Source: Acholoe squamosa (taxonomy: Eukaryota; Annelida; Polychaeta; Phyllodocida; Polynoidae). Taken from it: a stretch of DNA of 64,000 nucleotides. The translations under genes were made by a program, and so were the position numbers. Shown in pieces: positions 44,226 to 50,040 of this stretch (positions within the stretch are counted from its first letter, which is position 1; each line of letters starts with the position of its first letter). A model generated the notes under the pieces. The model worked only from the letters and a program-made list of their open reading frames with translations. It searched no databases and was not told where the DNA came from. The stretch spans positions 27,719,495-27,783,494 of the forward strand of contig OX439048.1 of assembly GCA_949317995.1 (NCBI GenBank). Reading direction: 5' to 3'.

Positions 44226-45107
44226 GAGACCGTCTGAGTGTGGCCAGGGATATCCAAGCATCATGAAAACGAATGGTAATGGTGCATTAATCTACCCTAC
44301 ATTAAAAAGGTTAGAAGTCGCAATATTTAGGACAGCGGGTTGTCAAATGTAGCAGAAGTATGAAAAGTCCATACTCTTTGGATTACACCGTCATTGGTTG
44401 CCACATGTATATAATACAATATCAATAGTCAGCTAGATGAGGATAGATTTATATTACACAGACGTCAGAGCTCGCCATACCTGTGATATCAATATACAGC
44501 TACAGAAACTGTTGTATTGACGTGTGTCTTGACACCAACAAAACTAAGATGATATCATAAATACAAGGGTTACGCTTATGGCCATGCCCTATTTGTCATG
44601 GGATTTTCATGGCTCTCAAAATAATTAAAAAAAAAGTGTATTAGAACTGACTGCTGTTTGATGTCTGGTTAAGATGTAAAGATTGACTTGGTCGTACTGC
44701 ACTGCAGTGGTGTATCATGAAGTCCATAACCCAGGGTGGCCCTTAAAGGGTTAATGCCTAGTTGGCTGCAGCCTATGGCAACCACATGTCTGCCCCCTGG
44801 TGTTGTAAGCAAGAACCCTGTCTAGAGGGGAGCTGGAGGAGGTCCTCCAGGGTCAAGTCTCCTCCAGGGTGCAGTGATAGCTGTATAGACATGTAGATCA
44901 GTCTCCACTGTCTCCTCACTCCAGGGGGTAATCCTTATCCCGCCCTATACTGAGGCAATACACGACGGGAAACATGGCACACGGCTAGACGACGTAGGCG
45001 AGCGGGCTGCAGGGAAAACCTTTCTATTTATCAGCTATGTTCATTGCTCATCCACCTTTTTCGCACAGAATCTACATGAACACCTCGGTTACACATTACC
45101 ACTATAA
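44226..45107. other. Upstream flank and possible 5' UTR of the LINE
   Basis: The 5' end of the LINE cannot be located from this copy alone, because no target duplication matching the 3' flank is visible. CTTAAAGGGTTAATGCC at 44741 resembles the satellite module TTAACCCTTTAAG. Confidence 0.35.
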
Positions 45108-46595
45108 ATGAGTGCCTCCAATAATATATCGACCAGGAAAAATAGCTCAACACCGCTACTCTGCCTAGACGAGAAGGGATTACCCAAAATGGCGGACATT
45201 CCAAAGGTAAACAAACCGTACGGGGACAAATCTGTGCCGCTATTACCTCCTCTAACATATAATGCCAAACCCAAAGAAATAATAGACAAAATAAATGAAA
45301 TTGATACAAGATTAAACCTACAGGCCACTATTAGCCAGCGCACTCTTGAACTTCTACAAGGATTAGAAAAGCGCATTTACGGTGACGAAGGCGCTGTCAA
45401 AACCAAAGTCACACTATCTCAGCTTGAAACGCGCATTGACACTATTGACACAGCGCTAACCGACCATAGTGACAGTATATCCAAAAACTCCAAAGATGTC
45501 AACAAAGTCAAATCTAGTTGTGATAGCTATGAAGAAAATTTCCTAAAAATGGAGTCTGATCGGAAAAGGAAAATCCTTGTAATAGATGGATTACATGAAA
45601 ACTCACCGGTCACGTTAAGGGACAAACTAGACCAATTGATCCAAGATCTAGGCCTATCCTTTGATAATACCTGCGCAGAAGCCGTGTACAGACGAGGTAG
45701 GAAACTTGATCCAACCCCACAACAGAGAAATGACCCCAAATTCAAGCCTAGAAATAGGTCTGTAATTGTCATATTTACTGCTACACACTACAAGTCACTA
45801 ATCTTTGCTAATATCAGCAAGTTAAGAAATAATCTCACCTGGAAAGGGGTTCATCTCTCTGATGACATGTCGCCACAAGAAAAACAAATCCAGAAGGACC
45901 TTAGATCCATCCAGGCCCTAGCCAGGAGTAAACAGATTAACTCTAGAGTACGAGGGAATGCTATTATTGTTGATGGGGTTACCTACGGCTATGGTGAGCT
46001 AAACACCCTACCACATGGATTATCTATTGAAAATGCAAAGACAATCGATACCCCGGATGGTGTAGCATTTCAAGGGCCACATTCAATTTTCTCAAATCTA
46101 TATCCCTGCCAAATTCAGTTCCAGGGTCAGATGTTTGACTCTGTCGAGAGGGCATATTGTGCAGAAATGTGTACCAAATCAAACCAACCACATGTACTTC
46201 GTAAAGTTATGTCAGCTAGCTCACCTATGGAGGCAATGTATGCAGCTAAGTCCTGTAAAAAATCGAATGAATGGTTTGATGAGGAGGAAAATACCATGTT
46301 CAAACTGATTGAAATTAAATTCAATAATCCTAGCCTCAGGAACAAGCTAACAGCCTTAAAAGGCAAATACATGTACGAAGCCACACTCAACAAAACCTAT
46401 GGCTGTGGGTACCATCTAGGCCAGAAGGCGGACATAACCATAACCAATGTGGCCAGATCTAACTTTGCCAATAAGCTGGGAGAAACTCTGGTGGAGGTAC
46501 GCAGACTACACACAGGTGAAGACCCACTAAAAACGACAGAGGAGGTTCGTCTTGAAATGGCTCGTAACCAGGACTTGAATTTACCCCAAACATGA
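45108..46595 (+). CDS. LINE ORF1 protein with C-terminal NADAR domain
   Basis: The frame has 495 codons, uninterrupted. ATG at 45108 is in good context, and a second good start is at 45189 (M28). Residues about 50-135 are helical and charged, predicting a coiled coil. Residues about 150-250 (RKILVIDGL, then a VYRRGRK-type basic segment, then RSVIVIF) resemble the RRM-like RNA-binding core of ORF1 proteins. Residues about 318-466 match the NADAR (YbiA-like) fold in order: FSNLYPCQIQFQGQMFDSVE (328-347), a helical block with KKSNEW, an IKFNNPSLRNKL block, YMYEATLNKTYGCG with Glu424, and NKLGETLVEVR near 456-466. Glu347 and Glu424 occupy positions normally conserved. The usual Trp before GCG is Tyr. 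NADAR enzymes act on ADP-ribose-like or aminated ribose-phosphate substrates. Its role in a retrotransposon is unknown. Confidence 0.85.
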   Translation: MSASNNISTRKNSSTPLLCLDEKGLPKMADIPKVNKPYGDKSVPLLPPLTYNAKPKEIIDKINEIDTRLNLQATISQRTLELLQGLEKRIYGDEGAVKTKVTLSQLETRIDTIDTALTDHSDSISKNSKDVNKVKSSCDSYEENFLKMESDRKRKILVIDGLHENSPVTLRDKLDQLIQDLGLSFDNTCAEAVYRRGRKLDPTPQQRNDPKFKPRNRSVIVIFTATHYKSLIFANISKLRNNLTWKGVHLSDDMSPQEKQIQKDLRSIQALARSKQINSRVRGNAIIVDGVTYGYGELNTLPHGLSIENAKTIDTPDGVAFQGPHSIFSNLYPCQIQFQGQMFDSVERAYCAEMCTKSNQPHVLRKVMSASSPMEAMYAAKSCKKSNEWFDEEENTMFKLIEIKFNNPSLRNKLTALKGKYMYEATLNKTYGCGYHLGQKADITITNVARSNFANKLGETLVEVRRLHTGEDPLKTTEEVRLEMARNQDLNLPQT

Positions 46596-46961
46596 ATGGA
46601 AATCTCCTGATTGCCAAACCGACTCTGTGACTATGAACTTGTTTCCTATACACATAGCTTATAAACCTAAATAATATACCGGTACATTTAACATATTGAG
46701 CTTGATTACCTATAAATCCTTATATGCCTGTGGAGAACTTTTCCCCTGCCCGCTATGCCCTCCAAACCTAGCTAAAGACTCAATACTTACCGGTACCATG
46801 GGTGGCATAAAGGCCTATACCCGTGTAATTGTACCTAAATTATCTACTACTACATTGTACCAACTATCTCATATTGGTTTAATTATTGACTATATCATCA
46901 ACTATGTACTGAATGAAAGAGAAAGAGAGTTAAAATATCAGGATGTACTCCAAGCTCTAAC

Positions 46962-47213
46962 ATGTCTCAAGACGTAACTAAGCTGGCTGGCACCAAAGGT
47001 ATTCATTTTGTTCATTTAAACGCCAGAAGCCTAAGGGCTAACTACCCTACTATATGTACGGAACTGTACAATGATAAGATTGAATTATTTTCTTTCTCTG
47101 AAACCTGGTTAAAATGTGAGGACCCTGAAACTTCATACCAATTTTGTAATTATACCAGATATAGGCTAGATAGGCAAACTTTAGATGACAAAGGTAAAAT
47201 AAAAACTCATTGA
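46962..47213 (+). pseudogene. LINE ORF2, N-terminal endonuclease fragment
   Basis: These 83 codons start at the ATG at 46962, the expected start of ORF2. They contain the first endonuclease blocks, HLNARSL and SETWL (the latter with the catalytic Glu). The frame ends early at TGA after KGKIKTH. The segment that should follow (glycine-rich strand and the YRPP block, roughly 80 residues) is absent from the DNA, and the downstream frame is shifted. Confidence 0.88.
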
Positions 47214-49635
47214 TGGTATTAATGACTCTAATGATATAAATAATTATGAAATTATTATCATGGGTGATTTCAATTTTAACATAAAGGATGACAATGATAT
47301 GGTCAACCAACTACTAAATAAAATGAAAGGTCATGGCTTTATGCAAGAAATTAATCAATCAACTCGTAAAAATGCCATATTGGACCTAGTTTTCACCAAC
47401 TTGAGAAGAAACTATATTCAAACGGGTATACTGGAATCTTATATTTCAGACCATCTTCCTATCTACTTGGTTAGAAAGAAATGGCATATCAAACCTGAAA
47501 AAACAGAGATTACTGGTCGGTCCTACCTGAAACTCTCTGATGAAATTTTGTTTGACAAATTTGATAATTATGACTGGAACGTATTTAATCAGGCTAATAG
47601 CGCAGATATTGCATGGGATGAATATGAAAAAGCTGTACGTTCAATCCTTGATACCTACTGTCCTGTACACAAATTTACTGTTAATAAGTTAAGAGATCCC
47701 TGGATTACCCCACAAGTAATTGAACTTATTAGAGACAAAAATTTAAAATTAAAAACAGCTCGCAGATCTGGAACAGAAAATGATTGGAAAGCTGCTGATA
47801 AATTAAGAAATAAATCAAACAAATTAATCAACAAAGCACGTAGATTATTCTACAAAGAACAAGCTGAATCCCATAAAAATAATCATCGTAAATTTTGGCG
47901 AGTTATAAACAAATTAATCCCTGGCCATGAGAACAGAGCTAGTGATATAAATTTAGTGGATCATGAAAATGATAATATGACTATCCCCAGGAATGAAACC
48001 TCTGACTTTATTAATGAATATTTTTCCAACATTGGACCTAAATTAGCTACCAATATGTACACGCCATGGAAAAGTTATGATCCTCCTTCTGTTAACACCC
48101 TAAAAAATTTCCAAACTAATACCCAAGAAGTTATTAAACTAGTCCACGACATCAACCCACTTAAATCCTCAGCTATTGACCAGATATCATCAAAAATCCT
48201 AAAAAAACTTTTCTTTCATGATCCTGATAAATTAGTTAAAATCTTTAATTTATCTTTTACTACAGCATCGGTACCTGCTAAATGGAAGATCTCACAAGTT
48301 ACGCCTATACCAAAAGCTGGTAACTTAAAAATGGTAAATAATTACAGGCCTATCTCATTAATCCCCTTACCCTGTAAACTAATTGAGAAAATTGTCCACA
48401 ATAGATTATATGGTTTCTTAAAAGATGAAAATATCTTAACAAATTTTCAAGGTGGTTTTCGCCCAGGCTTCAGCACTGTGGACACATTAGCTAAATTCAC
48501 AGATGACATTAAAAGAGACCTTAATATTGGTAATTCTACCGTTGCTGCCTTCATAGACCTGAGGAAAGCATTCGATACAGTAGACCATTCTGTACTCCTT
48601 ACTAAGCTTCATAATTATGGTATAAGATCGAACACACATCACTGGTTTAAAAACTACCTGGTCGATAGGAACCAAATTGTCAAAGCAAATGGTATTACTT
48701 CTAAAATGTGTAGAGTAATATGTGGTGTTCCTCAAGGTTCAATATTAGGACCTCTACTATTCCTGGTGTATGTAAATGACGTAATTAAATGTATAAAAAA
48801 TTGTAAAATTAGATTATATGCTGATGATACTGTAATCTATTCCTCTCATAATAATTTTGAAACTGCTAAAATTTGTTTACAGGAGGATTTAGAATCCTAT
48901 AATACCTGGTGTGAGCAGAACAAGTTGTCGGTTAACATTGCCAAAACTAAAATCATGATTTTCTCATCTTGTACCATGAAACTTAACACCCTATCAGCTA
49001 ATATTACAATGAAAAATTTAATGTTACAAGTTGTACCTAGTTATAAGTATCTTGGGGTTTTATTGGATCCTCTACTAAACTATAGTCTACATATCAAAAA
49101 CCAGGTAAAAACAATTGCTCATAAAACATACCTACTATGTAACCTAAGGAAGTATATCGACACTAAGTTATCTTTAAGAATATTTAAAACCACTATTTTA
49201 CCATATATGGATTATGCTGATATTATTATACATACTACCCATGAAAAATACCTGGAAATGCTCCAATATGCACAAAATCGTTGTCTAAAAATCTGTCTTA
49301 AGTTGCCACATCTTACAAATACTCGTTATGTTCATAATATATCAAACTGTAATTTCTTGTCTGATAGAAGGCAAATACACCTATTGAACTACATGTATAC
49401 AAGATCTAGATGTAACGACTATATCGACCACAGACAGATAAGAACAAGACAGCATTTGGCTCCTATATGTAAGGTATTATTCCCTAACACTGCATCATAC
49501 ATGAAAAGTATCGAATACTTCGGTGCCATTAGTTGGAATGCTCTCCCAGTAATAAGAAGAAACACTGAAACCTTATCAATTTTTAAATCAAATAATAAAA
49601 AACTATTAAAGGAACTTATTCCTGGAGTTGGGTGA
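47214..49635 (+). pseudogene. LINE ORF2, remainder of endonuclease plus reverse transcriptase
   Basis: The frame is open from about 47216 (LIDG...) and through 791 codons from the ATG at 47260 to the stop at 49635. It opens with the last endonuclease blocks, GDFN, ILDLVFTN and SDHLPI. RT motifs follow: PKAGNLKMVNNYRPISL, GFRPGFSTVD, FIDLRKAFDTVDH, GVPQGSILGPLLF, and the catalytic LYADD (Tyr520 to Asp523 of this frame), then YKYLGVLLD. The RT itself looks intact. Because the middle of the endonuclease is deleted at the junction near 47213, this copy should not be able to nick target DNA by itself. Confidence 0.92.
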
Positions 49636-50040
49636 CCATTCCAACTATTGAAATCTATTGAAATTATTTAAATCCTAGTCTTGCCATATTAACTAATCAA
49701 ATTATTCTCCGCCCTCTCTCTCATTTCTTTCTTTGTACTACTCTAACCTTGAACTGTACTAGTTCCCTTATATTGTTACTATTTCTCACCATCTTGGTAC
49801 GTATCCTTTTTATTATCTGATATGTGTGTCAATGCTACACAACTATGATCACAGTGTGGGTAGGACCAGAAGTATCAACCCATACACCCTACGTGGTGGG
49901 GATGAGGTCCATTGCCTTCTTTAGTCTCAGTTTAATAATTTTGTATTTAAACTTATATGTGTTAACGTGATGTACATTCTATACCTTTGTAACTGACTAT
50001 TCCGTATCTGAGACAATAAAGAAAATTTAACTTAAAAAAA

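Follow-up and report, generated by a model that had tools for sequence, protein, structure and literature searches.

A 64,000-nt stretch of the 1.48-Gb, 63-contig genome of the polynoid annelid Acholoe squamosa (contig OX439048.1, G000:C14:27719495-27783494; hereafter the window) contains a copy of a long interspersed nuclear element (LINE), a two-frame retrotransposon without long terminal repeats (LTRs), whose first open reading frame (ORF1) carries a C-terminal NADAR domain. A Pfam-A scan of the 495-aa ORF1 protein matched NADAR (PF08719) at 49.5 bits, above the curated cut-off of 35.1 (E = 7.5e-13), over profile positions 9-160 of 163. This bears out the original prediction, which had recognized, from the order of conserved sequence blocks, a fusion of NADAR with a LINE ORF1 protein in an uninterrupted frame, and had named a profile search as the check. 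The following frame codes for a reverse transcriptase (RT; RVT_1, E = 7.8e-41), together with the terminal part of an endonuclease (Exo_endo_phos_2, E = 3.6e-4, below the curated cut-off), and the setting of the NADAR-ORF1 is therefore a LINE; the start piece of ORF2, scanned alone against Pfam, gave no match. Coordinates of all features are collected in Table 1.

Compared with L020, a copy on a different contig with open ORF1 (495 aa) and ORF2 (973 aa) frames, the window copy shows 29 mismatches in 5,071 aligned bases (0.6%) and lacks some 202 bp close to position 47207, a deletion that breaks ORF2. The copy begins GGGAAACATGGCAC... and ends AATAAAG...AACTT, followed by an A-run; target-site duplications were not evident by eye in the flanks. 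Near-identical copies with open frames at separate places show that the family has been mobile recently.

A profile built from the window NADAR and 19 others of the same genome matched two solved chains at E <=0.01, both of them NADARs: that of P. nicotianae (8bau, E = 3.4e-26) and E. coli YbiA (2b3w, E = 1.3e-20). The original prediction held that both usually conserved Glu residues are kept, and they are found at E347 and E424, which correspond to E43 and E125 of the P. nicotianae protein; Glu at 125 is the mark of the YbiA subfamily (PMC11543638). By profile match and Glu pair, the window domain is best classed in the YbiA subfamily of the NADAR superfamily, and its homology predicts a YbiA fold. 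Both solved proteins have the two Glu and a Trp in common with the window NADAR. They were solved as stand-alone proteins, whereas the window NADAR sits within ORF1.

In window-type ORF1s, a coiled coil and an RNA recognition motif (RRM) precede the NADAR at the C terminus. A profile of 14 selected ORF1s (A2) matched not only the NADARs 8bau (E = 4.2e-25) and 2b3w (E = 4.9e-18) but also LINE-1 ORF1p (2ykp, E = 3.1e-7), where the match covers the coiled coil and RRM at profile positions 102-250. A match to 2ldy (E = 0.013, profile positions 165-251) is the sole trace of the C-terminal domain (CTD), and the N-terminal part of A2 also matches many unrelated coiled-coil chains, more weakly, from E = 3.5e-6 upward. 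The window ORF1 is accordingly predicted to have a coiled coil and a single RRM like those of L1 ORF1p. Type II ORF1s, which combine coiled coil, RRM and CTD, are described for L1, CR1, L2 and R1 elements (PMC4120745), and the similarity of the window ORF1 to L1 ORF1p lies in its coiled coil and RRM-like part; none of the six ORF1s scanned matched Pfam transposase 22 at E 0.1, which counts against a type II assignment.

The fusion is real and more widely spread than is evident from the window alone. The window ORF1 protein has 87 matches genome-wide, its own included, of which 82 extend to residue 437 or further, contrary to the lack of the segment in other copies that the original prediction had named as refuting evidence; five stop short, although one of these resumes in a second match. 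The matches form two identity groups, a window family at 75-100% and a sister family at 52-55%, represented together by loci L020-L028. Of 56 genomic matches to the ORF2 piece of the window, 34 lie within 3.5 kb downstream of one of the 67 ORF1 matches compared and the other 22 do not, a pairing that is a lower bound, as only the best candidates were scored and copies may be truncated. A genome search with the Pfam NADAR model gave 150 scored matches among 3,224 first-look candidates; the same search was positive in 3 of 14 control genomes. A Pfam search for molluscan haemocyanin, as a pointer to the host phylum, gave 0 matches, its control being silent too.

To measure selection, ratios of nonsynonymous to synonymous substitution (dN/dS) were calculated by the Nei-Gojobori method and pooled over pairs of 20 window-family and 7 of 10 sister-family ORF1s, copies having been picked for open frames and decayed ones excluded; the pairs, having a common history, cannot be treated as independent. 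In the window family, the NADAR part gave 0.178 over 8 pairs above 97% amino-acid identity, 0.113 over 115 pairs at 85-97% and 0.081 over 67 pairs at 85% or less, where synonymous sites are near saturation; the sister family gave 0.110 (21 pairs), and sites are saturated between the two families. Over the same four sets, in that order, dN/dS was 0.311, 0.111, 0.114 and 0.180 for the N-terminal part and 0.076, 0.081, 0.048 and 0.091 for the RRM/CTD part; the 27-residue tail ranged over 0.02-0.22. In 18 intact copies, the E347 codon is GAG in 11 and GAA in 7, with no replacement, and the E424 codon is GAA in 15, GAG in 2 and a Lys codon in one. The NADAR part is under purifying selection in the window and sister families, the two tested (dN/dS 0.08-0.18), in line with the selection that the original prediction had read from the open frame. 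A chance resemblance to NADAR is ruled out by the Pfam E value, the genomic copies and purifying selection, and a private fusion artefact of the window copy by the Pfam match, the 87 ORF1 matches (82 of them reaching residue 437 or further) and the same selection; we regard either as virtually excluded.

Active-site residues were mapped to the P. nicotianae NADAR (8bau) by alignment, with roles taken from PMC11543638; the residues mapped in the window copy are E347, M354, W389, K404, E424, N455 and G458. We compared 64 NADARs, a set that leaves out duplicate rows of one place (L004, L006, L007, L008), the stop-broken L003 and the L023 fragment. Glu at the E43 place and Trp at the W89 place are invariant (64/64 each), and Glu at the E125 place is found in 62, with Lys in L029 and Ala in L067. 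The third catalytic residue, K50 in the P. nicotianae protein, is Met354 in the window copy, a change that the original prediction overlooked. At this place, 30 of the 64 have Lys, 5 Arg and 29 Met, and the Met sequences comprise all 20 sampled members of the window family and nine of the ten sister-family members. Lys-type elements include L009 and L013, Arg-type ones L011 and L017. The tenth, L024, has Lys, and because it branches just outside the Met sequences in the NADAR tree (fork 86/82), a single Lys-to-Met change is the simplest account; the RT tree puts L024 with the window family, with weak support (84/46). Among 27 representatives less than 70% identical (median pairwise identity 0.28; the stand-alone NADARs L001 and L002 included), E347 and W389 are conserved in all and E424 in 26, and residue 354 is Lys in 23, Arg in two and Met in two.

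This substitution bears on activity, not on homology. In the E. coli C7 NADAR, the corresponding Lys (K50/K95 position) is essential for efficient hydrolysis of guanine-ADP-ribose, and Arg replaces it in vitro but not in cells (PMC11543638). By their residues, the majority of lineages sampled appear to be enzymatic, and that of the window less so: because the essential Lys is Met in all 20 sampled members, ADP-ribosyl hydrolase activity seems less likely in the window family than the original prediction assumed.

As judged by ORF2 similarity, the NADAR-ORF1s are accompanied by second frames of no fewer than three kinds: L1-like, intermediate and, in the window element, not L1-like. The L011 ORF2 matches L1 ORF2p at E = 4.9e-103 and L011 and L019, whose ORF2 pieces are 94.7-95.7% identical and which both have a NADAR-ORF1 about 0.5 kb upstream, therefore fall in the L1 group. 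The L020 ORF2, by comparison, has no L1 ORF2p match at E 0.001 and matches solely R2 (best, E = 4.7e-13), R2-like and retron/group II RTs. Tx1 is a clade of the L1 group, and membership of the window element in L1/Tx1 is ruled out by this difference. The intermediate, L069-type ORF2 matches both L1 ORF2p (E = 3.4e-25) and R2 (E = 4.7e-19). Of 19 NADAR matches assigned to this type, 18 have the ORF2 downstream and one does not; 16 of the distances are 1251-1260 bp, one is 2013 bp and one 5502 bp, the last to an ORF2 shared with another NADAR match.

Further types widen the set. The L009 type (L009, L010, L013, L016, L017, L018) has ORF2s about 30-32% identical to the window's, and the NADAR and RT trees concur on ((L013, L017), L016) and (L010, L018). 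In the L071 type, NADAR and ORF2 lie 1801 bp apart on C4 and 1799 bp apart in a second copy on C12; these ORF2s are 100% identical, and the two copies may reflect one duplication. On C2, a 50% identical ORF2 is located 866 bp past another NADAR. L012, L070 and L072 are single loci; the NADAR tree joins L012 with L072 (99/97), and it places L070 beside the window clade (98/98), whereas the corresponding RT forks are weak (52/0 and 73/98). L014 and L015 (ORF2 broken), L074 (in pieces) and L073 (a false neighbour) are not counted as NADAR LINEs.

L073 (G000:C4:91041721-91043592) belongs to a LINE family with 75 ORF2 matches listed and merely adjoins a NADAR element at C4:91039251. In the first trees, the NADARs of L069 and L073 stood together and their RTs apart, and an ORF1 swap between RT clades was considered; it was rejected and the linkage of the L073 ORF2 to a NADAR judged false, the remaining listed copies of this RT not lying beside L065-related NADARs when places were compared by eye. 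NADAR and RT trees rebuilt without L073 give no firm deep RT forks, and NADAR may have been acquired once or several times. The L073 case is a caution about linking ORFs by neighbourhood alone.

Two NADAR frames, L001 (C17:9901769-9902218; 222 aa) and L002 (C14:682108-682554; 247 aa), score highest among the Pfam matches listed, at 184 and 169 bits, and have every catalytic residue; they are possibly stand-alone host genes. In a quick tree, the L011 and L019 NADARs group with them (Shimodaira-Hasegawa-like approximate likelihood-ratio test 88). In the six L009-type LINEs, ORF1 and ORF2 are 1.8-3.5 kb apart. These elements hold, in that interval, further mutually homologous open frames of 214-305 aa, one in each of L009, L010 and L018 and two in each of L013, L016 and L017, and therefore have three or four ORFs. 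Four of the nine extra frames show a weak GDSL lipase match in Pfam, the best of which (E = 3.7e-5) falls short of the cut-off. A GG(F/I/L)NDLC motif occurs in six of the nine; the customary catalytic-Ser block seems altered.

Table 1. Features of the window LINE (window positions) and extra frames of L009-type LINEs (positions within each locus)
Feature	Position	Strand	Basis
Whole LINE copy	44970..50039 (about)	+	Bounds are the end of similarity to L020; flanks beyond differ
ORF1, 495 aa, stop codon included	45108..46595	+	Open frame (coding 45108-46592)
Coiled coil and RRM-like part of ORF1	45411..45900 (approximate)	+	By eye from alignment A2
NADAR domain, ORF1 residues 324-466	46077..46505	+	Pfam PF08719, E 7.5e-13
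ORF2 start (N-terminal endonuclease piece), ended by deletion	46917..47210	+	Open frame; matches the beginning of the L020 973-aa frame
Remaining ORF2: endonuclease end and RT	47203..49635	+	RVT_1, Exo_endo_phos_2
Extra frame, L009	3399-4139		One in this element
Extra frame, L010	5844-6551		One in this element
Extra frame, L018	5863-6777		One in this element
Extra frames, L013	4618-5442, 5360-6004		Two in this element
Extra frames, L016	3370-4167, 4286-5017		Two in this element
Extra frames, L017	4825-5586, 5576-6217		Two in this element

A NADAR-LINE ORF1 fusion has been reported before, briefly: PMC12477816 places a NADAR (YbiA-family) domain in the ORF1 of several Tx1 LINE families of Crassostrea gigas, in one sentence and a supplementary figure, and its authors suggest that the domain processes the RNA intermediate. 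As in the window, the domain sits in the ORF1 protein. The oyster elements are called Tx1, however, whereas the window-family ORF2 (L020) gave no L1 ORF2p match at E 0.001, and the passage on Tx1 in that paper, unlike the present analysis, contains no selection test, active-site residues or linkage. The Ectocarpus Gypsy element of the same paper is likewise a NADAR-bearing retroelement, but an LTR element of a brown alga with the domain in Pol. New here are the non-L1 LINEs, the breadth of the association, the selection and the Met lineage. The word NADAR is absent from the available text of a survey of 448 Jockey-superfamily elements (PMC4120745), as are NADAR, DUF1768 and YbiA from that of a gastropod LINE survey (PMC11203168), and a partial literature search found no further report of NADAR in a LINE ORF1. 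The SGNH-esterase ORF1s of CR1/RTEX also carry an enzyme-like domain on ORF1p, with a domain and chemistry unrelated to NADAR; in 2013 these esterase proteins were called unique among ORF1ps in enzymatic function (PMC3905857). Beside them, NADAR would add another enzyme-like class of ORF1p domain, the second.

For the role of the domain we lean, tentatively and at a little less than an even chance, towards an account in which NADAR acts as an N-glycosidase protecting reverse transcription in the Lys and Arg lineages and serves ADP-ribose binding, or an altered substrate, in the window's Met lineage. The coiled coil and RRM would assemble ORF1p on the element RNA, and each ribonucleoprotein (RNP) would thereby bear an array of NADAR pockets. 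With Lys or Arg in place, these would free the element RNA, the single-stranded cDNA or the nicked target of ADP-ribose linked to guanine, or of a comparable ADP-ribosyl adduct, and reverse transcription would so be protected against ADP-ribosylation by the host. In the window lineage, the Lys-to-Met change would predate the split of its present families; the pocket, with its two Glu and Trp, would have stayed under selection, probably for ADP-ribose binding or an altered substrate, and guanine hydrolysis would be weaker or absent. NADARs of several subfamilies, one of them from an oomycete, hydrolyse guanine-ADP-ribose, and NADARs reverse the products of ScARP and DarT1 (PMC11543638). In clams, CARP-1 ADP-ribosylates DNA at guanine N2 (PMC11209040), and guanine ADP-ribosylation therefore exists in some animals. 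Several observations weigh against this account. The window family is without Lys at the K50 place, and the Met-type sequences further have Asn or His at the D130 place and Tyr at the W133 place. The E88A mutation in the E. coli C7 NADAR abolished rescue in cells and had a minor effect in vitro (PMC11543638), and because of the latter, Glu conservation alone is no proof of catalysis; the conservation of Glu, Trp and Lys could be partly structural. The choice of open-frame copies for dN/dS tells in the same direction. A Scabin-like Pfam search for a host guanine ADP-ribosyltransferase gave 0 matches, but its control was silent as well.

Other accounts distribute the same evidence differently. 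It is possible, if rather doubtful, that a broad LINE radiation has from early on carried NADAR as an enzyme, a de-ADP-ribosylase that would clear host guanine ADP-ribosylation of the CARP-1 kind from LINE RNA or cDNA, and that the window sublineage swapped the phosphate-binding Lys for Met and turned to another substrate or to reading ADP-ribose; given that swap, a simple enzyme reading is weakest for the window copy. The Met at the catalytic Lys in 20/20 window-family and 9/10 sister-family NADARs, both under purifying selection, is also what would be expected if the fold were an extra nucleic-acid-binding or ADP-ribose-binding module of ORF1p, recruiting the RNP to ADP-ribosylated DNA breaks, for example, or packing RNA, with catalysis needed nowhere; transposon esterase domains are likewise slow in turnover (PMC3905857). 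We consider this unlikely on balance: all 35 other NADARs, two of them stand-alone, have Lys or Arg and 34 of them both Glu, and a full catalytic set at a median identity of 0.28 is unexpected for a mere scaffold. YbiA acts on N-glycosides of the riboflavin pathway (PMC9503650) and phage NADARs have been proposed to act on soluble ADP-ribose signals (PMC11543638), and the NADAR of the RNP might by analogy destroy soluble ADP-ribose derivatives or another immune N-ribosyl metabolite; its place behind the same coiled-coil and RRM-like part in the 14 ORF1s of A2 points instead to a nucleic-acid or RNP target and makes this improbable. Somewhat more improbable still is an adaptor that contacts cap-binding or spliced-leader machinery and aids translation or export of LINE RNA. 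The nematode protein SNA-3 is inactivated by mutation of its NADAR residues, but is described in the same paper as nematode-specific (PMC9303266), and our data hold no hint of a splicing partner, for which no search was made.

Known NADARs include antitoxins as well as proteins of phages and viruses; they can undo guanine ADP-ribosylation, and their roles in animals are still open (PMC11125620). The large set of LINEs described here that retain NADAR under selection suggests that ADP-ribosylation of nucleic acids, or else the binding of ADP-ribose, has a bearing on retrotransposition in some animals. These elements offer a natural series of Lys, Arg and Met variants in which the role of ADP-ribose may be tested.
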